From Gimesia chilikensis (lineage in GTDB: Bacteria; Planctomycetota; Planctomycetia; Planctomycetales; Planctomycetaceae), in assembly GCF_007744075.1 (NCBI RefSeq), contig NZ_CP036266.1, positions 7,902,564 to 7,966,563 on the forward strand: a DNA stretch of 64,000 bases, given 5' to 3'. A program made the translations under genes and the position numbers. Under the pieces are notes generated by a model that saw only the letters and a list, made by a program, of their open reading frames with translations, made no database searches and was not told the DNA's origin. Shown one piece after another: positions 9,475 to 46,109 of the stretch (position 1 is its first letter; each line of letters begins with the position of its first letter).

Positions 9475-9487
9475 TGACACCCGCAAG
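9475..9487 (+). repeat. Junction motif, form 2
   Basis: TGACACCCGCAAG, 54-55 nt before the recombinase start at 9530. This is the leftmost copy in the window. Confidence 0.7.
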
Positions 9488-9529
9488 CCATCTGTTCAAA
9501 ACAGAAATACAAAATGCGGAGAAATTCAG

Positions 9530-10132
9530 ATGGCAAAAGTGTCAGCGATTTATATGAGGGTATCAACCAAGGACCAGAAGCACGCCAGTCAGTTACCAGA
9601 TCTGGAACGTTGGTGCGAGACACATGGTGGCAAAGTGATCTGGTTCAAAGACACCTTTTCGGGGAGGACCATGAGCCGTCCCGGAATGGATCAGCTACTG
9701 GAATCACTTCGCATGGGGAAGTTAGATCGTATTGTAGTCTGGCGTCTTGATCGACTAGGTCGAAACACCAAAGGGCTCTGCCAACTCTTCGACGAGCTCC
9801 GGGACCGTCGTGTTGATCTTGTCAGTCTCAAAGATGGTTTCTCCTTGGAGTCTCCTGCTAGTCGACTTCATGCACGCATCCTTGCCTCAGTCGCTGAGTA
9901 CGAAACGGAGATCCGTGCTGAACGAGTGGCGGCAGGACAGGCTGTTGCTCGCAAAAACGGCAAGCGATGGGGCGGAAGTGAAAAAGGATGACGGTGGAAA
10001 GTAACTGACGATCAAGTCAAAACTATCCATGAAATGAAGCATGCTGGCAAAGCCATTACAAAGATCGCTCGTGTGACTGGCCTTTCAAGACCAACGATCT
10101 GTCGAGTCCTGCGGGAAGTCCAGCCACTTTAG
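9530..10132 (+). pseudogene. Serine recombinase (resolvase family) with in-frame stop
   Basis: Starts at ATG 9530 after GGAGAAATTCAG. The catalytic domain is intact: nucleophile Ser in AIYMRVSTKDQ (residue 12) and the VWRLDRLGRN motif. At 9989-9991 a TGA interrupts the frame after about 153 codons. Reading through it continues in frame as RWKVTDDQVKTIHEM and then ITKIARVTGLSRPTICRVLR, a resolvase C-terminal HTH, ending at TAG 10130-10132. A CGA-to-TGA change would explain it. The truncated protein would lack its DNA-binding domain, so the gene is probably inactive unless the stop is suppressed. Confidence 0.85.
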
Positions 10133-10155
10133 TAGTGTGGCTTGACGGATGGGAA

Positions 10156-10402
10156 GGGGCACTTGTGTTGCAAAAAAAGAATAGCCGAATTGTTGGATAG
10201 TTTATGTTGAAAAGTTACCCCCATAGGGGGCTCAAAATGGACTAAGCCCCCTATGGTTTATATATAACCTGCTCGTGACGAGGAATCGTCTATGCAAAGT
10301 TGGTTGCAAAAATTGGATTTTCTGGCGGGATGCTCATGGTGAAATTATCTTGAAAAGTTTTTGAGAAGGGCGAGGTTATAAATAGCGGCAATTGGAATAG
10401 CC
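10156..10402 (+). repeat. Conserved recombinase-associated noncoding element, copy 1
   Basis: About 247 bases starting 23 nt after the recombinase frame and matching 40614-40368 (reverse strand) along its length. Shared blocks include GGCACTTGTGTT, AGTTTATGT, AAGTTACCCCC, GTGACGA-N4-TCGTCTATG, AAAGTTGGTTGCAAAAATTGG and GAAATTATC-TTGAAAAG. Two hairpins are conserved: a G/C stem (CCATAGGGGGCT pairing with AGCCCCCTATGG) and GACGA-GGAA-TCGTC. No shared reading frame is evident. It could be a recombination site, element end or structured RNA. Confidence 0.75.
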
Positions 10403-10431
10403 TCTTTTAAACGATAGGCAACTGAAGAAGT

Positions 10432-16774: not shown

Positions 16775-16983
16775 ATGAGACTCACCCCGCCGTCTTCACC
16801 TGTGCTGTGTCGTAAAACACTGTAAACGCAGGCATTTCTTCCCGACACTCTCTCCGCTTGAAGCCCAAACTACGTCGCAAATCAGTTCAAATTCTCATTT
16901 GAGCGTTTGCGACAAGCGGCCTCTTCTCGATTCACATGCGAAAACCAATCTGCGCACAACATTTGTAATAGGACACCGGCAAG
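16775..16983 (+). repeat. Direct repeat, left copy
   Basis: Closely matches 18120-18328, strongest from GTTCAAATTCTCATTTGAG through GCGGCCTCTTCTCGATT to AACATTTGTAATAGGACACC, about 100 bases with few differences; similarity fades upstream. It ends in the junction motif. It lies before the truncated ArdC fragment, so leader and gene were duplicated together. Confidence 0.8.
16971..16983 (+). repeat. Junction motif, form 1
   Basis: GGACACCGGCAAG at the end of the left direct repeat; a second copy follows 54 bases later. Confidence 0.8.
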
Positions 16984-17037
16984 CGCAGGTTCGGCAAATG
17001 CTTCGCCGCTAAAGGAGACCACCACCTCGACACAAAG

Positions 17038-17050
17038 GACACCGGCAAAA
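17038..17050 (+). repeat. Junction motif, form 1
   Basis: GGACACCGGCAAA, 48 nt before the ArdC fragment start at 17086. Confidence 0.8.
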
Positions 17051-17085
17051 ACGTCGTAACCAAACCACTCACAAAAGACGACGCA

Positions 17086-17301
17086 ATGCCAAGCCAAACA
17101 GAACTTCGCCAGCAAATCACAAACGAAATTATCAAAACTTTACAACAAGGTATCGCACCTTGGAAACAACCTTGGTCTTCTGCCCCCATGCTGCGGCAGG
17201 CTGACAAACGCTATCACAAATACATTCTCCGAACTGACTTATGCGCAAGGAAGTATGCGATTCGAGAGCGATCAGGGAGTTGGCAGGTATCAAGGACTTG
17301 A
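17086..17301 (+). pseudogene. N-terminal fragment of an ArdC-like gene
   Basis: Begins MPSQTELRQQITNEIIKTLQ and continues APWKQPWSSA, the opening of the ArdC-like N-terminal (DUF1738, ssDNA-binding) domain, as in the complete genes at 18438 and 46060. After about 35 codons similarity stops and the frame runs into unrelated sequence and a stop. It is the broken partner of the duplication that also copied the leader. Confidence 0.75.
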
Positions 17302-17395
17302 GTCACTCCTCTACGATTTCTGAATTTTTGTGGGCTCATGAAACTAAAAGTGTTAATCTATATGAGGATTCACAACTCTTTAATGGGAGCGAACA

Positions 17396-17854
17396 ATGCC
17401 GAATGAATTGATACCAGACGAAATTGACAGTAGAGAGATTCCACCGGGCTTCGTTGACTTCAAGATTGAAGTGAATAAACCCGTAGGATTTTTCCTAGAG
17501 ATTATCGACACGAAGGCGACGGAATCAGATAAGCGGAGAATATTTCAACCATTTTTTTGCATGACTTTGGGTGATATGACGGGGTTTTCTATAATGTATT
17601 CCGATTGGTATGGCACATTGGTAGGAAGTTACCCAAAGTCATTCCGATTGGCGACAGCCGGAATAACAGCTAATGGGAGAACCGAAGCACGTTTCAGTGT
17701 TTATAAAGCAGTATCTGGAGACGAAGTGCAATTCCGTGCATTTCAACTCATTCCAAATTGTGAAATACAGATCTCTGTGTTTGACCAGCAATGGAAGACA
17801 GCAGCATATGGCTCCATGACGGATACTCTAGCAACAATTAAATTGACGTGGTAA
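17396..17854 (+). CDS. Hypothetical protein, 152 aa
   Basis: ATG 17396 after GGGAGCGAACA, a good ribosome site. The protein looks like an all-beta fold (alternating hydrophobic strands such as VDFKIEVNKPVGFFLEI and ATIKLTW at the end), without signal peptide or known motif. It has no junction motif upstream and sits between the truncated and complete ArdC genes, so it may be an insertion into the duplicated region. Confidence 0.6.
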   Translation: MPNELIPDEIDSREIPPGFVDFKIEVNKPVGFFLEIIDTKATESDKRRIFQPFFCMTLGDMTGFSIMYSDWYGTLVGSYPKSFRLATAGITANGRTEARFSVYKAVSGDEVQFRAFQLIPNCEIQISVFDQQWKTAAYGSMTDTLATIKLTW

Positions 17855-18119
17855 GTGCGAGATATATCCTTGTAGTCGCCACATCGCTTCTCTTGAGAGG
17901 CAAGTCTTGCAAATACATTCGGCATTAGTTTTATCAAGACGCCTTGACCAATTCTGAGTCAGATCGACTTTGTGGTGTATCTCAGGCGCAGGCGTCACCG
18001 CTTCGCATCTCAGGCATTAAGGATGCTTCTGCAACATTCCTTCCGCCTTCGGACCGATTGCCCACAGTGGCCTTCCACTTGAGATGTTCACTGAGATCGG
18101 ACATGATCACCGGCTTGCT

Positions 18120-18328
18120 GATCCAGAACCCCGCCGCCTTCACGTACGTCATGCCGTAAGGCACTACAAATATAGTCATCTTCACTCTACATTTGCCCCC
18201 GCCTAAAGCCCCATTTCCGTCCAAGATCGGTTCAGATTCTCATTTGAGAATTTGCGATAAGCGGCCTCTTCTCGATTCTCATGCGAAAACCAATCTGCGC
18301 ACAACATTTGTAATAGGACACCGGCAAG
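18120..18328 (+). repeat. Direct repeat, right copy
   Basis: Partner of 16775-16983. It ends in the junction motif and precedes the complete ArdC gene. The stretch 17855-18119 before it contains no gene I can support. Confidence 0.8.
18316..18328 (+). repeat. Junction motif, form 1
   Basis: GGACACCGGCAAG at the end of the right direct repeat; followed 53 bases later by another copy. Confidence 0.8.
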
Positions 18329-18381
18329 TAAAGGTTTGCCACCAACATCTCATCACAAGAGAAGAAAACTCTGGAATGAAA

Positions 18382-18394
18382 GGACACCGGCAAC
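18382..18394 (+). repeat. Junction motif, form 1
   Basis: GGACACCGGCAAC, 56 nt before the ArdC start at 18438. Confidence 0.8.
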
Positions 18395-18437
18395 GGCTTC
18401 GTAACACTAACCCACTCAACAGTGAAGGAACGACGCA

Positions 18438-19328
18438 ATGCCAAGCCCAAAAGAAATTCGCCAAAATATCTCTCAACAAATCGTAGACGCCTTAAAGTCG
18501 GGCAACACGCTCCCGTGGCGTCAGCCGTGGAGCAATGATCTAAATGTTGGACTACCAAGAAATGCTGTGAGCGCAAACCGATACTCGGGAGTGAATCCGA
18601 TCCTGCTGGAAATCAGCCGGATGCGGCAGGGATTTCAATCAAAGTGGTGGGGCACCTACAAGCAGATCCAGCAACTGGGTGCTAATGTCAAGCGTGGCGA
18701 AAAAGGAACAGCAATCACGTTCTACAAAAACATTCCAGTCAAGAATCAAAAGACGACGGCTGGTGAAGAACCTGAAAAAACCGTACCACTTTTACGAACG
18801 TACCACGTTTTCAATGTTGAGCAAACTGATGGGCTAGATCATCTACGAATTGGTCACGGTGACAGTACGACCGACATGGAAGATTCCCACGACGAAGCCG
18901 ATGAGTTAATAGACGCTACTGAAGCTGACATTAGATACGGTGGCAATCGGGCATTCTACTCGCCTACCACAGATCATATCCAATTACCTATGCGAAATCA
19001 GTTCCCCGACATGAATGAATTCTACAGCACGGCTACTCACGAACTCGTGCATTGGAGCGGAGCATCGCACCGACTGAATCGTTTTGGCTTGAGTTATGCT
19101 TTTGAAGAACTCGTAGCAGAAATCGGTTCATGTTACACATGCTGCGAAGTTGGCGTCCCCGCCAGTGATGATCTCTCGGACGTGACCAGTTATGTGCAAA
19201 GTTGGCTCCGAGCGATGGAGAACGATCCCAGCTTCATTTTTAAGGCAGCTTCGCACGCCTCAAAAGCCGCTGACTACCTACTGGACTTCCGCCCGTCGCC
19301 GGTTGAAGAACCAGCATTGGTTGTGTGA
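18438..19328 (+). CDS. ArdC-like antirestriction protein (ssDNA-binding plus zincin domains), module I
   Basis: 296 aa, start ATG 18438 after GAAGGAACGACGCA. The N-terminal DUF1738-type domain (residues 1-130: ISQQIVDALK, LPWRQPW, YSGVNPILL, WWGTYKQIQQLGANVKRGEK) matches ArdC, which binds single-stranded DNA. The C-terminal metallopeptidase-like domain carries HELVH (201-205) and a downstream FEELVAEIGSCY helix that would give the third zinc ligand. ArdC proteins of plasmids protect incoming DNA from host restriction. It leads module I and has a clear paralogue at 45176-46060. Confidence 0.88.
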   Translation: MPSPKEIRQNISQQIVDALKSGNTLPWRQPWSNDLNVGLPRNAVSANRYSGVNPILLEISRMRQGFQSKWWGTYKQIQQLGANVKRGEKGTAITFYKNIPVKNQKTTAGEEPEKTVPLLRTYHVFNVEQTDGLDHLRIGHGDSTTDMEDSHDEADELIDATEADIRYGGNRAFYSPTTDHIQLPMRNQFPDMNEFYSTATHELVHWSGASHRLNRFGLSYAFEELVAEIGSCYTCCEVGVPASDDLSDVTSYVQSWLRAMENDPSFIFKAASHASKAADYLLDFRPSPVEEPALVV

Positions 19329-19337
19329 ATCACAACA

Positions 19338-19350
19338 GGACACCGGCAAG
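19338..19350 (+). repeat. Junction motif, form 1
   Basis: GGACACCGGCAAG, ten bases after the ArdC stop. The 210 bases up to the next copy hold no gene. Confidence 0.8.
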
Positions 19351-19560
19351 CCATTCGTCCTGATCGGGACAGCCAAGTGGGATCACTGATGGTGATTACG
19401 AAGACGCCTAGGCTTTGACGCACGCAAGCAGAACGGAACCGTTGTCTCGGTCTGGCCAGCGAGCGACGGTACTCCACTGCCACTGTAAAGCCTTGAAGTC
19501 CCTATCGATCATCAACAGCGATCCGCTTGGTCTCTTTCTCTCTCCCGAAATGGTGAAAGA

Positions 19561-19573
19561 GGACACCGGCAAG
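19561..19573 (+). repeat. Junction motif, form 1
   Basis: GGACACCGGCAAG, 51 nt before the start at 19612. Confidence 0.8.
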
Positions 19574-19611
19574 TCCGTAAGACGAAAACAATCTTCTGAT
19601 GGAGAATAAAC

Positions 19612-20019
19612 ATGACAATCCAACTCAACAACATCTGCAATTCACAGCTTGTGCAGGTGAATTATTCCACAGTGCTGCGAGCCATAGAACTCACCGACAG
19701 CACCCCTTTCACAATGACGATCCGTAGCCCTCTCGAATGGGCCGCTATTGCTCAATGCGTGAATCAGGGAATTGACAGTCACCTTGAAGCGGTCTGTGAA
19801 CCACAGGACGTGTTCAATAATGGCCACTGTTCGGTCACACCGCACTCTCTATGCGTCCTGCTGCGAAGAATGGGTGACACAGAGTTCCGAGACACCGACG
19901 GCCACAATGCTGACGAAATTAGGGATGCAGCCATGTCGCTCCAGTCCAGCATTTTTACCTTGCTAGGGATAAACGAATACGGCGAGTGCATCGGGCGTGA
20001 AGCGATGGGGTTGGAGTAA
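19612..20019 (+). CDS. Module I hypothetical protein, 135 aa
   Basis: ATG 19612 with GGAGAATAAAC upstream. Unrecognised; mixed alpha/beta composition, with segments PFTMTIRSPLEWAAIAQCV and RDAAMSLQSSIFTLLGI. It sits between ArdC and the AAA ATPase. The equivalent place in module II holds no gene, only an inverted repeat, so it is specific to module I. Confidence 0.65.
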   Translation: MTIQLNNICNSQLVQVNYSTVLRAIELTDSTPFTMTIRSPLEWAAIAQCVNQGIDSHLEAVCEPQDVFNNGHCSVTPHSLCVLLRRMGDTEFRDTDGHNADEIRDAAMSLQSSIFTLLGINEYGECIGREAMGLE

Positions 20020-20021
20020 CA

Positions 20022-20034
20022 GGACACCGGTAAG
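20022..20034 (+). repeat. Junction motif, form 1
   Basis: GGACACCGGTAAG, two bases after the previous stop and 57 nt before the preferred AAA start at 20079. Confidence 0.8.
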
Positions 20035-20078
20035 AGAAGTAACAAGACACAATCAACTTCGCAATGGAGCTTTTGAAA

Positions 20079-21020
20079 ATGAACAACCCTAATGACAACA
20101 ACGACCAGATTCCATTTTTCCAAAATCCCACGTTTGAAAAACCTATAACCGCTCTTGAAGAGCGACAACAACTTTTGGCGCATCATGTGCGGCTTGTGGC
20201 TCGCAAACACAATCATGCTCTCTTCGTTTTTGGTGCCCAAGGTGGACTTGGGAAAAGCCGGACGATTCTCCAAATTTTGGACCAAGAGAATATCGAACCA
20301 GTTTTAATAAATAGTCACGTGACGCCGTTAGCATTTTACTCAATTCTTTTTCGCTATCGGAGTGAAGAAGTCATCTTCATGGATGACGTAGATTCAGCTT
20401 TTTCCTCCATGGCCCACTTAGGACTGTTGCGAAGTGCGCTTTGGGGATCACCACGAGTCGTAACATACGGTTCGAGCCAGTTGCCGAGCGACCTTCCCTC
20501 TTCTTTTGAAACAACAGCAAGATTCATTTTCGCCGCCAACGTCATTCCGAAAAAAAATGATGCTTTCAAGGCAGTCCTCTCCAGATGCGACATTTTTGAG
20601 CTTTCTGCGACAAATGAAGAAGTGGTTGATTTGATGAGATCAGTTTCGCAGAAAGGATTCCATCAGCTAACCCCCGAAGATTGTGGCATGGTCATCGACT
20701 ACATCGCAGAGAACTCCGATGACCGGCAACTCTCTATGCGGTTACTGGGACCGTCGCTTCGCAAGCTGCTTTATGCACGTGGCGAAGGCATCGATTGGCA
20801 ACCCATGATCAAGAGCCAGTTGAGTACGCTCGGGAGAAAAGATGCGTCTACAAAGCGACTCGATAGCAAAACTAAGGATTTACGGATCTTGCAAAACGCA
20901 ATTCAGAAACATCCCGACAGCGTGCAAGAGCAGGAGAAGGTATGGAGGCAAGTTACGGGTAAGTCGAGAGCCAGTTTTTATCGTTGTCTCCAGCGTCTCC
21001 GTGCTGAACATAATGAGTAG
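20079..21020 (+). CDS. AAA-type ATPase with C-terminal HTH-like tail, module I
   Basis: 313 aa from ATG 20079, chosen because GGAG is nine bases upstream and the motif spacing fits; ATG 20064 is the alternative. Walker A GAQGGLGKS is at 52-60 and Walker B VIFMDD at 98-103; sensor-like IFAANVIPKKNDAF and a lid domain with DRQLSMRLLGPSLRKL follow. The last 30 residues (TGKSRASFYRCLQRLR) look like a helix-turn-helix. The size and lid suggest a DnaC/TniB-like or phage-type loader ATPase acting on DNA, but no specific family is recognised. Paralogue: 44143-45036. Confidence 0.75.
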   Translation: MNNPNDNNDQIPFFQNPTFEKPITALEERQQLLAHHVRLVARKHNHALFVFGAQGGLGKSRTILQILDQENIEPVLINSHVTPLAFYSILFRYRSEEVIFMDDVDSAFSSMAHLGLLRSALWGSPRVVTYGSSQLPSDLPSSFETTARFIFAANVIPKKNDAFKAVLSRCDIFELSATNEEVVDLMRSVSQKGFHQLTPEDCGMVIDYIAENSDDRQLSMRLLGPSLRKLLYARGEGIDWQPMIKSQLSTLGRKDASTKRLDSKTKDLRILQNAIQKHPDSVQEQEKVWRQVTGKSRASFYRCLQRLRAEHNE

Positions 21021-21032
21021 GACACCGGGAAG
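21020..21032 (+). repeat. Junction motif, form 1
   Basis: GGACACCGGGAAG; its first base is the last base of the AAA stop codon TAG. 54 nt before the start at 21074. Confidence 0.8.
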
Positions 21033-21073
21033 TGAGTTGTCATAACAATTCAACTCACAACGGAGTCAAAAAA

Positions 21074-21472
21074 ATGAACGAGGTAAAATCATGTGCGGTT
21101 TTCAACGGTCACGAACTGAAAGACATCCCCGTAATCAATCCGGGCGACTGGTTTGGCAAGACGTGGTTGCTCGAAATCGGGGGATCTTATTGGCCACTGT
21201 TTTTGATTGTAGAAGCAGACACCGTGCAGGACGCCATCGACGAACTCGCAGACAACGAAAAATACGGCCACAACATAACTGTGTCTGATGACGATCTCGC
21301 CGATTACGACGCCGAGACCTGCAACTACGGGCCGTCAGGTCAGGTGATCGGCCTCGACCATCTGATGATCTATGGGACTGAAGGAACCGAGACTCCGTTT
21401 CCATGCCGGTATTTCGGTGCTGGTCTCCCCAAGGAAGGCATGATGCCGACCAAGTTCTGTCACCGGGATTAA
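21074..21472 (+). CDS. Module I hypothetical protein, 132 aa
   Basis: Start ATG 21074 (ACGGAGTCAAAAAA upstream) rather than the longer frame from 21032, which would begin inside the motif. The body reads WFGKTWLLEIGGSYWPLFLI, DAIDELADNEKYGHNI and acidic SDDDLADYDAETC. It resembles small acidic proteins of plasmids and integrative elements, but I cannot name a family. No module II counterpart. Confidence 0.65.
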   Translation: MNEVKSCAVFNGHELKDIPVINPGDWFGKTWLLEIGGSYWPLFLIVEADTVQDAIDELADNEKYGHNITVSDDDLADYDAETCNYGPSGQVIGLDHLMIYGTEGTETPFPCRYFGAGLPKEGMMPTKFCHRD

Positions 21473-21479
21473 GTCAGTA

Positions 21480-21492
21480 GGACACCGGCAAG
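21480..21492 (+). repeat. Junction motif, form 1
   Basis: GGACACCGGCAAG, 56 nt before the start at 21536. Confidence 0.8.
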
Positions 21493-21535
21493 CAAGTCGT
21501 CAAACAACAATTCACTCAATCACAGGAGCAACACA

Positions 21536-21751
21536 ATGGACAACTATCACGATCAATTCACCGAAGACCATTTGAACGGCGGCTACGGCGATATCCTCGA
21601 CGAACTGGCCGCAATTGAATTCGACGATGAGTTTCCGGAGCTTCCAGAACTCGACGAACCGTGGGACGAAATGTTGGCCCAGCAGGAACTCGAAGATTAC
21701 GAGCAAGCAGATGAATATTTCGGGTTCTATGGTTTTGATGAGGACTGGTAA
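21536..21751 (+). CDS. Very acidic 71-aa protein, possible DNA mimic, module I
   Basis: ATG 21536, CACAGGAGCAACACA upstream. By count 26 of 71 residues are Asp or Glu and there is no Lys or Arg, so the net charge is about -26. It shares GDILDE, DEPWDE, QQELEDYEQ and DEYFGFYG with the 71-aa protein at 42389-42604. Ocr- and ArdA-like antirestriction proteins work as acidic DNA mimics; the neighbouring ArdC genes make that role attractive here, but it is an inference. Confidence 0.75.
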   Translation: MDNYHDQFTEDHLNGGYGDILDELAAIEFDDEFPELPELDEPWDEMLAQQELEDYEQADEYFGFYGFDEDW

Positions 21752-21764
21752 GGACACCGGGAAA
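21752..21764 (+). repeat. Junction motif, form 1
   Basis: GGACACCGGGAAA, directly after the acidic-protein stop, 50 nt before the start at 21802. Confidence 0.8.
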
Positions 21765-21801
21765 GAAACCAGACGAACAACTTCAATCTGAAAGGAAAAG
21801 C

Positions 21802-22116
21802 ATGATAAATCAAAATAGCAAAGCAACCAGTCCAAAATTTAAGTTAGGAACAGTAGTCGCCACTCCGGGTGCATTGGATGCCCTTGAACAAAGTGGCCAG
21901 TCACCGAATGAATTTCTCAAACGCCATTTGCAGCTTGAGCAGGGTGATCTCTGTGCCGAAGATCATGAACTCAACACCGAATCTTTGAAGGACGGGAGCA
22001 GGATCTTGTCGGCTTACAAGACTTCGAAAGGCGTCAAGATTTGGATCATCACAGAAGCCGAAGATGGTAACGGCCATCGATCAGCAACCACGCTACTCCT
22101 GCCGGAAGAATACTAA
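21802..22116 (+). CDS. Plasmid-related small protein, 104 aa, module I
   Basis: ATG 21802 with GAAAGGAAAAGC upstream. FKLGTVVATPGALDALEQSG, then FLKRH, LCAEDHELN and RILSAYKTSKGVKIWIITEA, ending SATTLLLPEEY. This matches a family of small proteins annotated on plasmids and genomic islands, of unknown function. The paralogue at 42660-42947 shares both ends. The order of this gene and the acidic gene is swapped between the modules. Confidence 0.78.
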   Translation: MINQNSKATSPKFKLGTVVATPGALDALEQSGQSPNEFLKRHLQLEQGDLCAEDHELNTESLKDGSRILSAYKTSKGVKIWIITEAEDGNGHRSATTLLLPEEY

Positions 22117-22127
22117 TTGCCCATTTT

Positions 22128-22140
22128 GGACACCGGCAAT
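22128..22140 (+). repeat. Junction motif, form 1
   Basis: GGACACCGGCAAT, 11 bases after the 104-aa gene; the next gene is on the other strand. Confidence 0.75.
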
Positions 22141-22156
22141 TCACGAAGTGTTGACC

Positions 22157-22186
22157 ATCAAAACAGCACTGTATTCCTGTTTTGAT
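22157..22186. terminator. Hairpin between convergent genes
   Basis: Perfect 10-bp stem ATCAAAACAG/CTGTTTTGAT with a 10-base loop, between the 104-aa gene and the convergent 136-aa gene. The A- and T-rich arms could serve both directions. Confidence 0.55.
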
Positions 22187-22189
22187 AGT

Positions 22190-22600
22190 CTACGCCCCCA
22201 CCATCATCGAGAAGAACTCAGCGTAGTCGTCGCCGCCAGCAATCTCACCACACTGCTGTCGCACAGCCACAGCCGCAGACTCATCTTCATCATACGACTC
22301 GTCTGCAACACACTTTCCAAAGTGCGCTTCGAGCACTTTGAGCGCAGAGATGAAAACTGTTTGGTTTTGGGCAACTGGGCATAATACCCGATTCTCAACT
22401 TCGTGATCGTACACCTGAAGCGTTCCATCGTTCATCAGGCATAGTGCATCCGCCTCGGCCAGTCCGATAAACGTCGCTTCGGCGGGAAGAGCGTAGTATG
22501 GGAAGCAATCCGCTGCAGATGCGGATGCTGAGAATTCGATCATGCCAACGACGTGTTTGTTTTGTTGCCAGTCGGCAATCTTCGGGTCGATCTGAGTCAT
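22190..22600 (-). CDS. Hypothetical protein, 136 aa, opposite-strand insert in module I
   Basis: ATG 22600. Cytosolic and acidic, with strands VVGMIEFSASASAADCFPYY and FIGLAEADALCLMNDG then TLQVYDHEV, reminiscent of SMI1/KNR4 (SUKH)-type proteins, which often act as immunity proteins; this is only a resemblance. The gene runs against the module and is bracketed by junction motifs at 22128 and 22720. Confidence 0.6.
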   Translation of the reverse strand: MTQIDPKIADWQQNKHVVGMIEFSASASAADCFPYYALPAEATFIGLAEADALCLMNDGTLQVYDHEVENRVLCPVAQNQTVFISALKVLEAHFGKCVADESYDEDESAAVAVRQQCGEIAGGDDYAEFFSMMVGA

Positions 22601-22719
22601 GTTGACATCCGCTTGGAAAGACTTTTGTACAAGTAATGGGATCTGGCGTGGACGATTCTACTTGACCGCAGAAGTCGAATGCAATGAAAGGGCTGAAGAA
22701 TACTGATTACCCCAAAACA

Positions 22720-22732
22720 GGACACCGGGAAG
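22720..22732 (+). repeat. Junction motif, form 1
   Basis: GGACACCGGGAAG, 52 nt before the start at 22772. Confidence 0.8.
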
Positions 22733-22771
22733 CCAGTTGTAAATCAACACAACTCTTCACAGGAGAAACAC

Positions 22772-23206: not shown

Positions 23207-23216
23207 TCAGCAAGTA

Positions 23217-23229
23217 GGACACCGGCAAA
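23217..23229 (+). repeat. Junction motif, form 1
   Basis: GGACACCGGCAAA, 55 nt before the start at 23272. Confidence 0.8.
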
Positions 23230-23271
23230 ACAACTGTGGAAACAACAACACACTCAACTAAAGGAACAAAA

Positions 23272-23517: not shown

Positions 23518-23561
23518 GTCCGTGGATGGTGGGGCTCTCAAGGATGGGAGCTTCACCTTTC

Positions 23562-23574
23562 GGACACCGGCAAG
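23562..23574 (+). repeat. Junction motif, form 1
   Basis: GGACACCGGCAAG, 110 nt before the recombinase start; the extra length is taken by the inverted repeat that follows. Confidence 0.8.
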
Positions 23575-29606: not shown

Positions 29607-29672
29607 TTCATTTTTCTTTCTTGGGCCTAGACTTATTTCCGATTCCTTGCCGGTGGCCTAATGAGCGACGGT

Positions 29673-32691: not shown

Positions 32692-32704
32692 GTTGCCGGT
32701 GTCC
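32692..32704 (-). repeat. Junction motif, form 1, minus strand
   Basis: GGACACCGGCAAC, 60 nt before the start at 32644. Confidence 0.8.
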
Positions 32705-34327: not shown

Positions 34328-34340
34328 TGACACCCGGAAG
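34328..34340 (+). repeat. Junction motif, form 2
   Basis: TGACACCCGGAAG, 69 nt before the start at 34397, right after the leader A T-tract. Confidence 0.75.
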
Positions 34341-40653: not shown

Positions 40654-41229
40654 TTATGCTTTCAGATATCGAAGGACAGTCCGCTTGCTTGTCCCCAGTG
40701 CAGTAGCGATCTCGTCGATCTTTAGGCCACGAGATCTGAGTTCCTGTGCTCGCTCCGGTTTCGCTTTGTACGTGCCCCGCTTTCTGCCAGTGTAGACTCC
40801 TTTCTTCTTGGCCACTTCGATACCCGCCTGTTGTCGTTCCTGCCGGTATTCGAGTTCAATCTCGGCAAGTCCCAGCATCACAGCAGCGATCATCCTTCCG
40901 ACTGCACCATTCAGTTCGATCATCTGGGTGATCACAACAACTTTGATTCCCCGTTCACACCAGTCTGCCAGCAAGGTCACGCCATCTTTCAAACGGCGTG
41001 ACAGTCGGTCCAGCTTCCAGCACACTACTGTTTTGATCGTCCCATTGAAGATATCCTCCTGCAATCGCTGGAACTCAGGACGCTTCAAGGTCTTGCCACT
41101 TTCATAGTCGATGTACCATTCGATATGATTTTCATCGAAGCCATTGGCAGCAATCCATTTCCTGATCTCTGCTTCTTGGCTGTCTGTCTTTTGTTTGGCT
41201 GTACTACAGCGGCAATAGCAGGCGATCAT
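40654..41229 (-). CDS. Serine recombinase, module II
   Basis: 191 aa, ATG 41229 after CAAGGAAATCTCTC. Resolvase domain with Ser9 in ACYCRCSTAKQ, VVCWKLDRLSRRLKDG and MIAAVMLGLAEIELEYRQ; the C-terminal HTH is intact (IDEIATALGTSKRTVLRYL). Length matches Tn3-type resolvases/invertases. It differs clearly from the module I recombinase and from the one at 9530, though the position and the downstream element are the same. Confidence 0.9.
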   Translation of the reverse strand: MIACYCRCSTAKQKTDSQEAEIRKWIAANGFDENHIEWYIDYESGKTLKRPEFQRLQEDIFNGTIKTVVCWKLDRLSRRLKDGVTLLADWCERGIKVVVITQMIELNGAVGRMIAAVMLGLAEIELEYRQERQQAGIEVAKKKGVYTGRKRGTYKAKPERAQELRSRGLKIDEIATALGTSKRTVLRYLKA

Positions 41230-41279: not shown

Positions 41280-41520
41280 GCACTCGATGTTGAGACTGAA
41301 AGCCCTACAAAATAAGGCGATTCAGGGTTTATAATCCGAAGAACTCTAATTGTCACATTGACAAGTTGAGTTTGGGTGTCTTCATCTCAGCATCTCATCT
41401 GACGCCGAATACCCTTGCCATAATAAGTTCTACTGGGAGAACGAAGGGGTTTGGATTTGATTAAAGCTCGGACTTTTGGTCTGCGTTTCTTTCTCATTAC
41501 ATCTAGGTCTCCATATGTAT

Positions 41521-41533
41521 TGTGAGGGTGTCG
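41521..41533 (-). repeat. Junction motif, form 2, minus strand
   Basis: CGACACCCTCACA, diverged, 37 bases after the 81-aa gene stop, on the recombinase side. Confidence 0.55.
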
Positions 41534-41569
41534 GGAGTCCTCCATGACTCCACCGACACGTGTTGTTGA

Positions 41570-41815
41570 CTATTCCGGTTCGAAACTGAAATAGAAACGC
41601 GGAGAATGTTGGAACTTTAAAGTCCCACGAATCCCGTCTGATTTTCTTGTCGCCAAAACTAAGGGGGCCAAGAAGCCTTCAACTGAATATTCCTGCTGCA
41701 GTTCACTGGTATCCCAGACCTGCCCATGTTTGGCTTCGAGATACTCCCGACTTCCCTCAACTGCATTAATGCTTTGAGTCATTTCCCGGCGAATGGATTC
41801 TGTCTGATCAGTCAT
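41570..41815 (-). CDS. Conserved module protein, 81 aa, module II
   Basis: ATG 41815 with CAGGAGTTTTAG upstream. IRREMTQSINAVEGSREYLE and AKHGQVWDTSELQQEYSVEG match the 23272-23517 protein residue for residue over long stretches, ending PRFYFSFEPE. Function unknown. It lies last before the recombinase, as in module I. Confidence 0.8.
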   Translation of the reverse strand: MTDQTESIRREMTQSINAVEGSREYLEAKHGQVWDTSELQQEYSVEGFLAPLVLATRKSDGIRGTLKFQHSPRFYFSFEPE

Positions 41816-41856
41816 CTAAAACTCCTGATAAAGTAAAAAGTGATTGTTACATATCA

Positions 41857-41869
41857 CTCGCGGGTGTCA
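41857..41869 (-). repeat. Junction motif, form 2, minus strand
   Basis: TGACACCCGCGAG, 53 nt before the start at 41815. Confidence 0.8.
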
Positions 41870-42298
41870 TTGCGTGAGACCTTGAGACTTACGCTGACGC
41901 CTTTTTTCCAGTCTTTCCTGATGCCGGAATCTCACTTCCAGCCTCCAATCTGGATGGCCGCCATATCGGTCAAGAGGCACAAGATCGAGATACCTTATCG
42001 GGCATGAGTAATAGTATGGGTGTTCTGCTTCTTGCATGTCTTTATAGCCCCACTCCCCTCCATGGCATCGAATCAAATCACACGTGATCCAGCGTTGAGT
42101 TCTCTCAACCTGCTTCCCTTCTCGCTCAAAGGTCCGCTCCCAGACGCTCCATAGCACGCCGCTGAACTTGCCACCCCTAAAACAACTGGCAAGACAAGTT
42201 GATTTAACAGTCACTCCATTGAGTTCACGTTCCCAAGATTTAGTCCGCTGCTGAATGAGTTCTTTTCGTGAAACTCCAGTCGGATATGTCCAACCCAT
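41867..42298 (-). CDS. Conserved module protein, 143 aa, module II
   Basis: ATG 42298 (TTTAGAGGAGATCGAT upstream). Retains MGWTY, STCLASCFRGGKFSGVLWSV, RTFEREGK, QRWITCDLIRC, WGYKDMQE and YYYSCPIRYL of the 22772-23206 protein, and a basic tail. Its stop overlaps the next junction motif by three bases. An intrinsic terminator, not a motif, precedes it. Confidence 0.8.
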   Translation of the reverse strand: MGWTYPTGVSRKELIQQRTKSWERELNGVTVKSTCLASCFRGGKFSGVLWSVWERTFEREGKQVERTQRWITCDLIRCHGGEWGYKDMQEAEHPYYYSCPIRYLDLVPLDRYGGHPDWRLEVRFRHQERLEKRRQRKSQGLTQ

Positions 42299-42311
42299 AT
42301 CGATCTCCTCT

Positions 42312-42355
42312 AAAAGAAAAAACTGCTGTGAGATTCATATTGAATCTCACAGCAG
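42312..42355 (-). terminator. Intrinsic terminator inside module II
   Basis: Perfect 14-bp stem (CTGCTGTGAGATTC with GAATCTCACAGCAG, 5-base loop) followed by TTTTTTCTTTT on the minus strand, between the acidic gene and the 143-aa gene. It would separate the last two small genes and recombinase from the upstream genes. Confidence 0.85.
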
Positions 42356-42388
42356 CCTTGTGGTTGTCTTGTTTCTGGGAATCAGAGA

Positions 42389-42604
42389 TTAGAACTCGCC
42401 GTATCCGAAGAAACCGAAGTATTCATCGCATTGTTCGAAATCTTCAAGCTCTTGCTGTTGGAGAATGTCGTCCCAAGGTTCGTCATACGGATATTCTTCG
42501 TCGTACTCTTGGGCGAACTCGTCAGCCGCTTGTTCATCCAGAATGTCGCCATAGTTGCCGTTCAACTGATCTTCACAGAACTGGTCAAGATGATCGTCCG
42601 TCAT
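42389..42604 (-). CDS. Very acidic 71-aa protein, possible DNA mimic, module II
   Basis: Start ATG 42604 (CGGGAGAAACAC upstream), inside a longer open frame that is not supported. By count about 25 of 71 residues are Asp/Glu, with no Lys or Arg. It shares DQF, NGNYGDILDE, YDEPWDDIL, QQELEDFEQCDEYFGFFG with the module I protein of identical length. That an all-acidic composition is kept in two diverged copies suggests the charge itself is functional. Confidence 0.78.
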   Translation of the reverse strand: MTDDHLDQFCEDQLNGNYGDILDEQAADEFAQEYDEEYPYDEPWDDILQQQELEDFEQCDEYFGFFGYGEF

Positions 42605-42645
42605 GTGTTTCTCCCGAAAAGAATATTGAATTTGTGAACACTGTG

Positions 42646-42658
42646 AGTCAGGGTGTCT
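42646..42658 (-). repeat. Junction motif, form 2, minus strand
   Basis: AGACACCCTGACT, 53 nt before the start at 42604. Confidence 0.7.
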
Positions 42659-42659
42659 G

Positions 42660-42947
42660 TCAATACTCTTCGGGCAGTAGAATGGTAGTCGCACTGCGAT
42701 CCGCTTCGGAAATAATCCAGACCTTGGTGTTGTCCTTGAGGTGGTAGGCACTGAAAATCCGGTCGCCATCTTTAAGAGCCTGCTCATTGGTCTGGCGATC
42801 TTCCGAACACAGCTCAGACCAGTCCCCATGTTGATGTCTTTCAAAGAACTCAAGCGGTGACTGATTGTTGGCTTGGAGAGCATCAAGAGCTCCATGCGTG
42901 GCAACGGTCCGACCAAGTTGGAAGAGAGGTTTGCTTTTTTGGATCAT
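42660..42947 (-). CDS. Plasmid-related small protein, 95 aa, module II
   Basis: ATG 42947 (GAAGGAAACGAG upstream). FQLGRTVATHGALDALQANN, LCSEDRQTNEQALKDGDRIF, KVWIISEA and the end SATTILLPEEY match the 21802-22116 protein. The middle is shorter. Function unknown. Confidence 0.78.
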   Translation of the reverse strand: MIQKSKPLFQLGRTVATHGALDALQANNQSPLEFFERHQHGDWSELCSEDRQTNEQALKDGDRIFSAYHLKDNTKVWIISEADRSATTILLPEEY

Positions 42948-42991
42948 CTCGTTTCCTTCATTAAGTGATTGTTGGTTACTCGAACAATCAT

Positions 42992-43004
42992 CTGTTGGGT
43001 GTCA
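42992..43004 (-). repeat. Junction motif, form 2, minus strand
   Basis: TGACACCCAACAG, 56 nt before the start at 42947. It forms the left bracket of the carbonic anhydrase insert. Confidence 0.75.
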
Positions 43005-43102
43005 GATACTACTCAGAGAAGAATTTTCTTGAGTTACTGAATCTGATCTGGGACAATCTGAACAACCGTGAATCCATTTTTTGAGAATAGAAAGAGCACA
43101 TC

Positions 43103-43759
43103 ATGAGCCAGCAATCCCCCATCGATATCAGAAATCCGATCTATGCAGACTTTGGAGATGGCAAATTAAAGATTAAATGGAACAGCGATGTATATGGTCA
43201 CATTCATAAAGGTGATCATGGAATGCAGGTCTTATTCGCATCGGATTGTCGCCAATACATCGAACTCTCCGGGAAGCAGTATCACTTGAGGCAGTTCCAT
43301 TTTCACCATCCCAGTGAGCATTGGGTGGATGGCAGCCAGCACGCGATGGAATTACACGTGGTTCATCAGAATTCGCATGATGGATCACTGGCAGTTATCG
43401 GGATATTCATTGACCCCGGAAAAACCAAAGATCCGGTGCATAAGCTGTTGACCCAGATTGCTTCCATATCTTTTGCAGGATCAAATACTAAAGACGACTA
43501 TCATGTTTCTTTTGATCCCAACGATTTCCTGCCAAAGGACTGGAAAAAACACTATCGGTATGAAGGCTCACTGACCACGCCGCCCTATAGTGAAAATGTC
43601 AGTTGGGTTGTTATCAAAGATTCATTTGAAGTGAACGAAACGGAGCTTTCAGAATTACTGGAAATTTTTGAATCAGAAGCTCGATTCCCTGAACCACTGA
43701 ATCGTAGATATATCCTTTCCACATTTAAAGAAGATGATAAACCCAAAGGGAAGAAGTAA
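43103..43759 (+). CDS. Alpha-type carbonic anhydrase, opposite-strand insert in module II
   Basis: 218 aa. QQSPIDI, then zinc ligands in FHFHHPSEH (two His) and MELHVVH (third), and GSLTTPPYSENVSWVVI with the Thr gate. No signal peptide. It runs against module II, between motifs at 43004 and 43777. The second alpha-CA of the window (32799-33491) lies in the mirror-image segment, but the two differ considerably. Confidence 0.9.
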   Translation: MSQQSPIDIRNPIYADFGDGKLKIKWNSDVYGHIHKGDHGMQVLFASDCRQYIELSGKQYHLRQFHFHHPSEHWVDGSQHAMELHVVHQNSHDGSLAVIGIFIDPGKTKDPVHKLLTQIASISFAGSNTKDDYHVSFDPNDFLPKDWKKHYRYEGSLTTPPYSENVSWVVIKDSFEVNETELSELLEIFESEARFPEPLNRRYILSTFKEDDKPKGKK

Positions 43760-43776
43760 GAATCAGGAACGGTGAG

Positions 43777-43789
43777 TCTCAAGGTGTCA
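43777..43789 (-). repeat. Junction motif, form 2, minus strand
   Basis: TGACACCTTGAGA; its TGA is the stop codon of the 102-aa gene. Confidence 0.65.
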
Positions 43790-44095
43790 GATGGGAATAA
43801 CCTCATACTGAATTGTTTCGCCATTGGCCATCTTTTGGCTGGCCAAAAAGGCATCGGCTTCTCTGCTTGGCGTCATCCTGCACAAACTGGAGATCTTGCT
43901 GGCAAAGCAAATCGTGACTGGATGATTATTGAGCTCATCCCCTGATATGCCAGTTTCTCTCATGGCTTTGAGGTGTCTGTGGAAACATCCAGCAACTGCA
44001 ATAAGATTGACAGCATCCTGAACTGCGATGGCATCGCTGGCTGCTTTTCGAAGACTCTCGATATTGCCGTCGGATGTGGCGAGTTGATTAAGCAT
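43787..44095 (-). CDS. Module II hypothetical protein, 102 aa
   Basis: Start ATG 44095, chosen over 44146 because AAGGATCACAAA precedes it and the motif is 49 nt upstream, as at other junctions. Helical (NIESLRKAASDAIAVQDAVN, LIAVAGCFHRHLKAM), then HPVTICFASKISSLCRM. It may belong to the small plasmid-type helical proteins; no name. No clear counterpart in module I. Confidence 0.65.
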   Translation of the reverse strand: MLNQLATSDGNIESLRKAASDAIAVQDAVNLIAVAGCFHRHLKAMRETGISGDELNNHPVTICFASKISSLCRMTPSREADAFLASQKMANGETIQYEVIPI

Positions 44096-44132
44096 TTTGT
44101 GATCCTTGCTGGATAGGTGTGGTAATAGAAAG

Positions 44133-44145
44133 ATGTCAGGTGTCA
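44133..44145 (-). repeat. Junction motif, form 2, minus strand
   Basis: TGACACCTGACAT; its TGA is the AAA gene stop codon. 49 nt before the start at 44095. Confidence 0.7.
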
Positions 44146-45036
44146 CTCAGATTCTTCCTGCATTTTCAGATATCGTTGACGAGCTCTGAAAAAACTTGCA
44201 CGACTTTTTCCGGTCGTGTTGCAAAAGAAAGTCTGCTGATCCGCTGGTGACTCTGGATGTTTTTCTATTGCCTGTTTCATCACTTTTGCGTCAGCCGATT
44301 TATTGTCAAGTCGCTTGGTTGCAACCTGTTTACGCCCAAGTGAACTCAACTGGCTTTTGATCAGGGGACGCCAGTCAATGCCCTCCTCATGAGCATATTT
44401 CAGCTTTCTCAGACTTGGGCCAAGAAGCCGCAGTGATAACTGACGGTCTTCGGCATTCGATTCGATATAATCGATGACCTCTACGCACTCATCAGGTGTC
44501 ACTCCATGGAATCCTTCCGAAGAGAGATTACGCATCATCTCAATGACCTCGCCGTTAGTAGCACTTAATTCAAACTGATCGCATCGAGACAAGACGGCCT
44601 TGAATGCATCATTTTTGGGAATGACATTCACCGCAAATATGACACGGCTTGTAAACTCGAACGAGCTTGGCAAGTTGGACAGTTGCGACGAGTTGTAGGT
44701 CACAATACGGGGGCTTCCCCAAAGTGCAGACCGAAGCAGGCCAAGGTGTGGCATCGAGGAAAACATGGAATCCACGTCATCGAAGAACAGAATCGAATCT
44801 TCGCGGTGTTGCCAAAGCACTCCATACAAAGCAAGTGGCGTAATGTGCGAATTAATTAAAACCGGATCTACTCCATATTCGTCGAGAACTTGTAACACTG
44901 TTCGGCTCTTGCCCATGCCGCCCTGAGCTCCATAAATCAGCAAACTGTGGCTCATTTTCTTGGCGACCAACCGAACATGATGAGAAAGTAGTTCCTGTTT
45001 TTTCTCTAGGGATGTCTTTATCTGCGAAGATTCCAT
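44143..45036 (-). CDS. AAA-type ATPase with C-terminal HTH-like tail, module II
   Basis: 297 aa, ATG 45036 after GAAAGGAATAGAA. Walker A GAQGGMGKS at 36-44, Walker B ILFFDD at 82-87 followed by VDSMFSSMPHLGLLRSAL as in the module I protein. The central VIFAVNVIPKNDAFKAVLSR and the DRQLSLRLLGPSLRKLKYA lid are nearly unchanged, as is the tail TGKSRASFFRARQR. Strong conservation of the whole length indicates the same task in both modules, probably DNA-linked. Confidence 0.78.
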   Translation of the reverse strand: MESSQIKTSLEKKQELLSHHVRLVAKKMSHSLLIYGAQGGMGKSRTVLQVLDEYGVDPVLINSHITPLALYGVLWQHREDSILFFDDVDSMFSSMPHLGLLRSALWGSPRIVTYNSSQLSNLPSSFEFTSRVIFAVNVIPKNDAFKAVLSRCDQFELSATNGEVIEMMRNLSSEGFHGVTPDECVEVIDYIESNAEDRQLSLRLLGPSLRKLKYAHEEGIDWRPLIKSQLSSLGRKQVATKRLDNKSADAKVMKQAIEKHPESPADQQTFFCNTTGKSRASFFRARQRYLKMQEESE

Positions 45037-45055
45037 TTCTATTCCTTTCGTTGTA

Positions 45056-45068
45056 ATTGCGGGTGTCG
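45056..45068 (-). repeat. Junction motif, form 2, minus strand
   Basis: CGACACCCGCAAT, 31 nt before the AAA start, closer than usual. Confidence 0.75.
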
Positions 45069-45077
45069 TATAGAAGT

Positions 45078-45163
45078 GATCGCCGCCCTGATCTGGAACT
45101 AACAGTGGTCCTCAACGTAATGTGAAAGACCACAGAGATCTGTTTTGATCAGTGACGGCGATC
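45078..45163. repeat. Nested inverted repeat between two motifs
   Basis: Outer arms GATCGCCGCCCTGATC and GATCAGTGACGGCGATC pair almost fully; inside, GTGGTC and GACCAC form a second stem. It fills the gene-less interval between ArdC and AAA in module II, where module I has a 135-aa gene. Confidence 0.65.
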
Positions 45164-45165
45164 TA

Positions 45166-45178
45166 CTTGTGGGTGTCA
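45166..45178 (-). repeat. Junction motif, form 2, minus strand
   Basis: TGACACCCACAAG; its TGA is the ArdC stop codon. Confidence 0.75.
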
Positions 45179-46060
45179 GCAAGAAACCCCGGCGGGCTTG
45201 AACGACATGAGGTAATCAGTCGCCCGAGAGGCTTGAGAAGAAGCTTTGAAGATGAATGATGAATCCTGCTTCATTTTTTGGAGCCAGCCATCGAGATAGG
45301 CATGATGATTTTCATCATTCATTGGGATATTAAGCTCCGAGCATAAGTAACACGCTCCGATCTCCGCAATTAGTTCGCCAAGTGCGTAGCCATTACCTTC
45401 ACGATCCCAATTCAGACGGTTTTCTGTCCAATGAACGAGCTCATGGAACAGAGTTTCGTAATATCCAGTTCCTGAAAACTGATCTCGATTGGGAACTTGG
45501 ATGTAGTCTCTGGGTATATCGTAATATGCTTGGTTGCCTCCATGACGAATATCCGCTTCGGTTGCCGCGATCAATTCGTCAGCTTCTTCGTAGAAGTTGC
45601 TATCTTCATTGCGGGTGTCAATGTTGTGACCAACGCGATAGTGATCCAAATGATCGCCTTCAATCTGGTCGATGTTGAAGACGGTGTAAGTTCGAAGCAG
45701 GAAGTAAGTCTCTTCTTCCTCATGTTCCTTCTTCTTCGTGATGGCTTTACAGAACACGATTTTTGTACCCCACTGACCTTTGGAGACATGCGATGGTCGA
45801 CGCATTACTTTGCCACCGAACTGTTCCCACTGCTTATAAGTGCCCCAGTGCCTCGACTGAAATCCATGTCTCTCGCAGGCGAGCCCCAGCAAGAGAGGAT
45901 TAACGCCTGAGTATAAATCACCTGACACAACATTCTTTGGCATTCCTGCGTTACGGTCGCAGCTCCAAGGTTTACGCCACGGCGGGAGTGATCCTCTCTC
46001 CAAAGCAGAAATGATTTGATTTGTAATTTCTTCGCGGATCTTTTGATTGTTGTTTGACAC
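45176..46060 (-). CDS. ArdC-like antirestriction protein, module II
   Basis: 294 aa from GTG 46060 (GGAGACGGTAAA upstream). DUF1738-like N-terminal domain (EITNQIISALERGSLPPWRK, LYSGVNPLLLGL, WGTYKQWEQFGGKV), then a zincin domain with HELVH at 206-210 and YALGELIAEIGACYLCSEL. A charged insert (KKKEHEEEE) lies between the halves. Same architecture as 18438-19328. A copy of the motif core lies inside the gene at 45614-45619 (see findings). Confidence 0.88.
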   Translation of the reverse strand: MSNNNQKIREEITNQIISALERGSLPPWRKPWSCDRNAGMPKNVVSGDLYSGVNPLLLGLACERHGFQSRHWGTYKQWEQFGGKVMRRPSHVSKGQWGTKIVFCKAITKKKEHEEEETYFLLRTYTVFNIDQIEGDHLDHYRVGHNIDTRNEDSNFYEEADELIAATEADIRHGGNQAYYDIPRDYIQVPNRDQFSGTGYYETLFHELVHWTENRLNWDREGNGYALGELIAEIGACYLCSELNIPMNDENHHAYLDGWLQKMKQDSSFIFKASSQASRATDYLMSFKPAGVSC

Positions 46061-46096
46061 TTTACCGTCTCCAGATGAGGTTGATTGGACGGCTTG

Positions 46097-46109
46097 TTTG
46101 CGGGTGTCA
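46097..46109 (-). repeat. Junction motif, form 2, minus strand
   Basis: TGACACCCGCAAA, 48 nt before the ArdC start. This is the outermost copy on the right. Confidence 0.8.

Follow-up and report, generated by a model that had tools for sequence, protein, structure and literature searches.

In a 64,000-nucleotide (nt) stretch of the Gimesia chilikensis genome (contig NZ_CP036266.1, positions 7,902,564 to 7,966,563; hereafter the window), two related integrative elements were found, element A on the plus strand (16.9-24.4 kb) and element B on the minus strand (46.1-40.65 kb), and most of their genes are preceded by a short motif with the core GACACC. The motif and the hairpin that frequently follows it are best explained as an RNA leader module of about 50 nt, which would stand before most genes, and before some non-coding units, of planctomycete integrative elements carrying ardC. 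We observed a consistent position and orientation, a constrained distance to the start codon, pairing within the leader that exceeds that of controls, and a G-poor tract. We tentatively propose that these leaders act at the RNA level, one per gene, and together form an element-specific "establishment regulon". DNA roadblocks of the stoperator kind, recombination boundaries, promoters and single-strand DNA signals were weighed as alternatives, in this order of decreasing probability.

A sequence-only reading of the window had described the motif as marking nearly every gene junction of two operons, too regularly for chance, and the counts bore this out. On the two strands of the 64 kb, GACACCSGCAAG with at most one mismatch was found 23 times, compared with 0.34 expected (mean of 100 dinucleotide shuffles, maximum 2); the motif is genuine and greatly exceeds chance expectation. 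All copies of the GACACC core in the window were listed (n = 50). The whole genome (8.29 Mb) contains 11 exact copies of the motif, 8 of them inside the window. Among the three outside, one lies within a 534-codon open frame and two are without a start under the rules used; one of these two, at 7859948, is about 2 kb away from a distant relative of the ATPase-like protein of the elements.

Element A encodes, in order, an ArdC-like protein, a protein of 135 amino acids (aa), an ATPase-like protein, proteins of 132, 71 and 104 aa, an antisense unit, proteins of 144 and 81 aa and a serine recombinase. The 14 copies reported between 16971 and 23574 were recovered on recounting, and all 14 plus-strand GGACACC lie between genes. 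Element B has relatives of most A genes; the 71- and 104-aa genes have changed places, and the serine recombinase at its end is a different one. Here the nine minus-strand copies given for 41521-46109 were found, plus one more at 41380. Not every copy in B is at a junction: minus-strand GACACC at 45619, 44500 and 43977 are inside the ArdC, ATPase and 102-aa genes, and the 144-aa gene has no intact copy, its leader containing GACAACCACAAGG. The single copies at 9475, 34328 and 34616 (plus) and at 31630 and 32692 (minus; GACACC at 31641 and 32703) are all present, and one that had been overlooked, GCCACCGGCAAG, was located at 29657 (minus).

Relatives of the elements were found with two proteins. 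With the ATPase-like protein as query, 13 of 59 genomes gave a match, as did 32 of 397 class genomes (E <= 1e-20); with the ArdC-like protein of B as query it was 107 of 397 (E <= 1e-30). The own genome is included in each count. From these matches 78 regions were fetched (20 + 18 + 20 + 20), which are referred to by L numbers. Elements with both the ATPase and ArdC keep the layout with different letters: ATACCCACTA in L078, ACGGACACCAACTAC in L088, AGCGGACACCGnCT in L081 and GGACACCGGCCAG in L089. At ArdC loci the motif reads TAGGCACCTGCTA in L142, L162, L163 and L165, GAGGCACCCCCTAG in L158 and L159, TAACACCCGCTTG in L141, TGACGGACACC in L151, L154 and L155, CGGACCA in L149, L150, L156, L160 and L164 as well as in two leaders of L148, TTGTACC in L146 and L152, and TGTACCC in L174. 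Common to most elements are only the core ACC, a weak YGT 14 nt further along, the G-poor tract and the start distance, and even the ACC core is not universal: L139 has mostly ACT (8/10), the common motif of L153 is TTGTACAGG, and at the ArdC locus L168 CGACGGG, which has no ACC core, is common to four leaders (p 0.01). A single-base contrast between L081 (ACC) and L139 (ACT) in one genome was dropped as evidence, as a recount gave 7 ACC and 1 ACT in L081 and 8 ACT and 2 ACC in L139, a majority difference only. With the ACC left out, motif identity is 0.72 within elements and 0.42 between them, and the flanks show 0.33 and 0.26 on one side and 0.25 and 0.26 on the other. The motif is thus largely uniform inside an element and different between elements. 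As regards homologous modules elsewhere, a motif at most junctions was confirmed, but its sequence proved element-specific.

The layout was also examined blind, by asking of each locus whether a 7-mer recurs in its leaders, taken as the sequence 36-62 nt ahead of predicted starts; 200 random placements served as the null, and the p value is that of a single locus, with the better of two strands taken. At p <= 0.01, 25 of the 53 ardC loci were positive (11/13 of those found via the ATPase and 14/40 of those found via ArdC), and so was L046, a B locus without an ArdC match in the fetched stretch. None of the 24 ATPase-fetched loci without an ArdC match reached p <= 0.01. The test gives a lower bound, since L078, L149, L160 and L164 fail yet have a motif visible by eye. 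A strict link to ardC is contradicted by one GACACCGGCAAG copy each in the ArdC-less L051 and L052, and by TTGTACCTGT in the leader of the 104-aa gene of L080. An extension to other phyla was rejected: in three proteobacterial plasmids with a relative of the 104-aa protein, none of the leader sets showed a significant common 7-mer.

Several side observations concern these relatives. A tyrosine recombinase of 241-246 aa, XerC/IntI-like by eye, replaces the serine recombinase or sits in the middle of the array in L089 (11218-11943) and L045 (12869-13609, both in reverse-strand coordinates), L158, L163 and L165; its leader keeps a TTTCG..CGAA dyad directly after the motif, and L039 has only a relic of this leader. 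In L146 (2687-2733, reverse-strand coordinates) the copy before ardC lies within a 21-bp inverted repeat that contains an inverted motif, and in L174 an inverted copy lies about 30 nt upstream, before ardC.

To describe the leaders, 458 loose motif matches were collected from 40 elements, with patterns that also match inside genes and flanks. A start codon with a ribosome-site-like sequence was present 24-74 nt downstream of 274 matches, and in 210 of these 274 it lay at 44-56 nt, compared with 87 of 301 random positions. After removal of matches whose frame is open upstream without a near stop, 202 unique leaders of 39 elements were kept (L153, L161 and weak loci are outside this set). Their ACC-to-start distance has a median of 50 nt and an interquartile range of 47-52 nt. 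The stop codon of the preceding gene lies within -16..+4 in 109/202 leaders. A weak second block, Y14 G15 T16, follows at fixed spacing (ACC-N11-YGT); here 170 matches were reduced to 149 by removing those judged intragenic with a hand-made substring list. The tract before the ribosome site contains 12% G, compared with 27% in control leaders.

Sequence next to the motif pairs with the rest of the leader. The stem score of positions +5..+20 with the 3' part of the leader was 14.74, compared with 11.67 (sd 0.175) when 3' parts were swapped within the element, and 29 of 32 elements exceeded their own swap mean. The stem sequences differ from gene to gene within an element, and in the leaders of ArdC genes the 3' arm frequently abuts or covers the start codon. 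At single interior non-Watson-Crick positions of long stems, GU occurred 19 times, compared with 7.0 expected, and other mismatches 33 times, compared with about 33, a pattern that leans weakly to the sense strand. The leaders of the 144-aa genes of L042, L044, L046 and L079 have a terminator-like hairpin followed by a T-run. Intrinsic termination was rejected as a general role, because hairpin and T-run are clear only in those four and a few others and most leaders are without them. No Rfam family matched the window at the gathering score, and a T-box, considered for a resemblance to GGNACC, was dropped because the core varies.

A hairpin beside the motif would also suit a single-strand DNA signal in transfer or replication, such as a single-stranded DNA promoter or a nick site. 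The ardC context is consistent with this, and establishment genes of F-like plasmids are under single-stranded DNA promoters, as reported in PMC8708921. However, the stems vary from gene to gene with no evident -35/-10, and no relaxase or Rep turned up among the scanned window proteins; we consider this the least probable of the explanations. A dedicated bipartite promoter for each gene, GGACACC plus YGT read by an element-specific sigma factor or polymerase, would account for two conserved blocks at fixed spacing and for copies before stand-alone genes, e.g. recombinases. The gap from ACC to YGT is only 11 nt, which is short for known sigma factors and does not show the usual 16-18 nt spacing of two-block sigma-type promoters. 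Moreover, any transcript start would lie downstream of the 5' hairpin arm, so that no pairing of this arm with the remaining leader would be expected. In six of the seven recombinase leaders viewed (the exception is L078), TTTACA stands shortly before the motif; were this a -10 box, the motif would fall at the RNA start, and its position is compatible with transcripts that start there. Because of the short gap, and because the paired 5' arm would fall inside the promoter DNA, a promoter appears very unlikely.

RNA-level explanations are favoured by the way sequence next to the motif pairs with the remainder of the leader, by the weakly sense-leaning wobble and by the constrained start distance. 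Among the four roles that had been offered for the motif, an RNA-protein site and a processing site gained support from pairing and start distance, a promoter became unlikely and a cassette boundary received mixed evidence. In the establishment regulon as we envisage it, each leader of an integrated element would make its gene independent of transcription arriving from upstream, and largely unresponsive to it, possibly through the hairpin together with a stretch poor in G but containing C, which might favour Rho action or attenuation. An element-specific factor would recognize the motif on the RNA and change the state of every gene of the element at once, e.g. on entry into a new cell, each gene having its own switch.

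Several observations weigh against this proposal. Of the loose matches, 184/458 have no start in range, partly because they are intragenic or in flanks. Copies also head non-coding or antisense units: 4 of the 14 copies in A precede no sense gene, 16971 and 18316 being each 66 nt ahead of the next copy, 19338 being followed by about 220 nt of non-coding sequence and 22128 by an antisense open reading frame (ORF), and a fifth, 23562, lies some 110 nt ahead of the recombinase start. Sequence upstream of the motif, used as a control, also pairs slightly (13.49 vs 12.89, z 3.1), and 877 motif-less leaders gave a swap difference of 0.31 (z 4.0), compared with 3.07 with the motif. By the score used, a strong stem is present in only 100/202 leaders, and the scores are inflated by the non-independence of leaders from related elements. 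AC is enriched as well as GU in the stems (14 vs 7.8), so that the strand argument is weak. Finally, no widespread protein of the elements tracks the motif in a comparison of protein with motif distance over 15 families, and the reader is therefore hypothetical.

In that comparison, pairs without a BLAST match were set to 20% identity. Ten families present in at least 13 elements gave Spearman coefficients of 0.02-0.39 (ArdC 0.38, ATPase 0.39). Five smaller families (7-11 elements) gave 0.11, 0.22, 0.53, 0.73 and 0.78, the high values resting on few clades and not being taken as evidence, though one of these families might still encode the reader. Swaps of ArdC in L040 and of the ATPase in L045 and L089 argue against these two as readers. 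L142 and L163 have a motif distance of 0.07 with ArdC proteins only 35% identical; conversely, L150 and L162, in one genome, have different motifs with integrases 76%, RuvB-like proteins (by eye) 69% and helix-turn-helix (HTH) proteins (by eye) 74% identical. Small basic proteins restricted to one class of loci may be candidate readers, as leads only. An arginine-/lysine-rich peptide of 36-40 aa occurs in the six B loci, with a disrupted frame in L044, and was absent from the other loci scanned. A basic protein of 73-75 aa was, by clustering, confined to the CGGACCA-type loci L149, L150, L156, L160, L164 and L148, and a regular expression for it found L148, L149 and L164. In A elements the same ORF filter gave no comparable basic ORF except 65-aa frames overlapping the 132-aa gene. 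An antisense guide RNA was rejected as a general reader: complements of the motif in nine elements (both strands, top four per strand) were mostly 7-10 nt long, with wobble. Runs of 13 nt were seen at window position 23425, inside the 81-aa gene, and at 5298 in L088, about 590 nt upstream of the first copy; the run at 23425 did not recur in the best matches for L039 and L040.

A more specific version of the RNA-level reading, which we regard as doubtful, is a private address system in which each element labels most of its mRNAs, and some non-coding RNAs, with its own leader word and hairpin, read by a fast-replaced, element-specific RNA-binding factor. Leaders would then evolve in concert and perhaps fall into compatibility classes that do not depend on the proteins under their control, a consequence that we hold with the same reserve. 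The lambda-type nut site, boxA plus a boxB hairpin read by the N protein, likewise combines a linear motif with an RNA hairpin, and its phage-specific reader diverges fast. The present sites differ from nut in standing at most genes, in a linear part that is element-specific and in a stem that varies within the element.

The uniformity of the motif within elements (0.72 vs 0.42 between them) and its many oriented, intergenic, asymmetric 13-bp sites are also features of stoperators. According to reports on cluster A mycobacteriophages, stoperators are asymmetric 13-mers that number more than 20 per genome, occupy short intergenic gaps and follow the direction of transcription, with a consensus that differs per phage group (PMC9283540, PMC6550527). 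The sites of L5, Bxb1 and TipsytheTRex resemble the present ones in being asymmetric, about 13 bp long, multi-copy, intergenic, in one orientation and private in consensus. An element-encoded repressor bound to such a junction site could halt elongation one-way, with a specificity private to each element. This reading leaves the constrained start distance, the YGT block and the frequent hairpins unexplained, as well as the G-poor tract, and the hosts here are planctomycete integrative elements, not phages. For stoperators the cognate repressor is a two-domain monomeric protein. No repressor family was found in general scans of A and B proteins with Pfam, NCBIfam and PHROGs (a search with the L5 repressor itself was not made), and the absence of a widespread protein that tracks the motif counts here too. 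We therefore judge DNA stoperators unlikely, ranking them second.

An ardC-bearing regulon with repeated upstream regions is known from the plasmid pLS20. According to PMC8708921, repeated regions rich in inverted repeats (EGeRS1, 400-600 bp) lie upstream of each operon of its establishment regulon, and the copy tested was devoid of constitutive promoter activity and stopped read-through only when in its native orientation; the EGeRS2 sequence is a promoter that has dual TTATCCC operators. In this account pLS20 and p576 (EGeRS1, and EGeRS2 with Reg) resemble the present elements as ardC-bearing mobile DNA with a repeated regulatory region before ardC and other genes. Unlike EGeRS1, which precedes operons, the unit here is about 60 nt long, stands at most genes and has a motif of its own in each element. 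ArdC together with a repeated upstream sequence was found here, but neither an EGeRS1-like region nor the TTATCCC of EGeRS2 in the leaders read. By analogy, the nearest published behaviour is that of EGeRS1 and the nearest site pattern that of the stoperator; the leaders are best read as analogues of the one-way stoperators and of the repeated regions of pLS20. Full-text literature searches, with thin coverage of subscription journals, did not find the motif described.

Gene order bears on the view that the motif is a recombination boundary, an integron-like core site for insertion, loss and exchange of gene units, in which uniformity would come from the need for identical cores and not from a reader. 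Between close elements, gains and losses run from motif to motif: L039 and L040 are without the 135- and 132-aa genes, and L039 has an extra unit before the recombinase. The motif also heads non-coding and antisense units, and motif and proteins are decoupled, as in the pairs L142/L163 and L150/L162. However, any short direct repeats would yield precise deletions, and the distance to the next start is constrained. The boundary loses some support because diverged elements whose motifs differ have largely the same gene order, taken from coordinates. As to whether genes shuffle at the motif, the motif-to-motif gains and losses and one swap of the 71- and 104-aa genes were seen, the order being otherwise conserved. 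Integron attC sites similarly occur once per gene unit near the stop codon, are structured with variable stems and may head non-coding or antisense units. They have an inverted partner box (RYYYAAC/GTTRRRY), whereas no inverted partner was found beside the motif in nine elements. We judge a recombination boundary quite improbable.

The results point to a regulatory code at the grain of single genes in a widespread class of mobile elements, given ArdC relatives in 107/397 genomes and the layout at many fetched loci. As the motif shifts in unison within an element and independently of widespread proteins, regulon specificity, element compatibility and gene recruitment become testable. A- and B-type motifs were also seen in leaders of cargo-like genes near the elements (LRR, GYF-domain, zinc-ribbon-like) at 28008-32703 (minus) and 34328-36409 (plus). 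Elements and their cargo may be delimited by sequence only, as the A-type motif also accompanies cargo genes near element A. Coordinates are given in Table 1.

Table 1. Motif copies, leaders and genes in the window.
Feature	Position	Strand	Remarks
Element A, 14 GGACACCGGCAAG-like copies	16971..23574	+	starts 16971, 17037, 18316, 18382, 19338, 19561, 20022, 21020, 21480, 21752, 22128, 22720, 23217, 23562
ArdC-like anti-restriction protein (ArdcN + MPTase-PolyVal)	18438..19328	+	PF08401 2.5e-36, PF18818 8e-39; phrog_7245 6.9e-83
Motif-headed non-coding unit after ardC	19338..19561	+	alignable in L038, L040, L088, L089
135-aa protein, motif leader	19612..20019	+	matches no family (Pfam, NCBIfam, PHROGs)
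P-loop ATPase-like protein, 318 aa	20064..21020	+	phrog_1250 4e-16; query for finding relatives
Example leader	21020..21073	+	motif, stem GTGAGTTG 21032-21039 with CAACTCAC 21051-21058, ribosome site, start 21074
132-aa protein, motif leader	21074..21472	+	no family assigned
71-aa acidic protein, motif leader	21536..21751	+	
104-aa protein, motif leader	21802..22116	+	relatives on 124 plasmid records, mainly other phyla
Example leader	22720..22771	+	motif, stem AGTTGT 22735-22740 with ACAACT 22749-22754, start 22772
144-aa protein, motif leader	22772..23206	+	
81-aa protein, motif leader	23272..23517	+	conservation strong between elements
Serine recombinase of A	23672..24355	+	PF00239 6.1e-28
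Element B, junction GACACC, TGACACCCGCAAG-like	41375..46108	-	starts 46108, 45177, 45067, 44144, 43788, 43003, 42657, 41868, 41532, 41380
ArdC-like protein	45176..46060	-	leader stem GCCGTC 46093-46088 with GACGGT 46069-46064, adjoining GTG start
ATPase-like protein	44143..45036	-	66% to ATPase-like protein of A
Example leader	42966..43003	-	motif, stem TGATTGTT 42990-42983 with AACAATCA 42973-42966
36-aa very basic peptide ORF, own motif leader	41387..41497	-	among the loci fetched, similar ORFs in B-type loci only
Serine recombinase of B	40654..41229	-	similarity to recombinases of A and others
TGACACCCGCAAG before serine recombinase gene	9475..9487	+	conserved TTTACA few nt upstream; pairing GCCATCTG..CAGATGGC, over start codon
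GCCACCGGCAAG	29646..29657	-	51 nt ahead of 532-aa gene starting 29606
A-type GGACACCGGCAAG before GYF-domain gene	31630..31642	-	53 nt from G of GACACC
A-type GGACACCGGCAAC before 202-aa gene	32692..32704	-	
B-type TGACACCCGGAAG	34328..34340	+	another B-type copy starting 34616

Further features of the elements were noted. The region upstream of ardC in A is duplicated (16.8-17.3 kb and 18.15-18.45 kb); the first duplicate is followed by a broken ArdC start that belongs to a different version of the gene, and between the duplicates lies a gene for a 152-aa protein (17396-17854). Paired motif copies 60-66 nt apart, with a short non-coding spacer, precede ardC in window element A, L038, L039, L040, L078 and L089. 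The motif-headed non-coding stretch after ardC is alignable over about 210 nt in A-like elements (window 19338-19561), and in L089 it runs into a 116-codon gene; the stretch in B-like elements is another one, about 110 nt long, in which nested complementary arms were seen by eye (45177-45067, minus, and L042-L045). Antisense ORFs with a motif copy on either side are found at 22190-22600 (minus) in A and at 43103-43759 (plus) in B. The 318-aa protein of A, which had no Pfam or NCBIfam match, was assigned by eye an ATPase and an HTH-like C-terminal segment. A small sigma-70-like gene was recognized by eye at 8334-8840 (minus).

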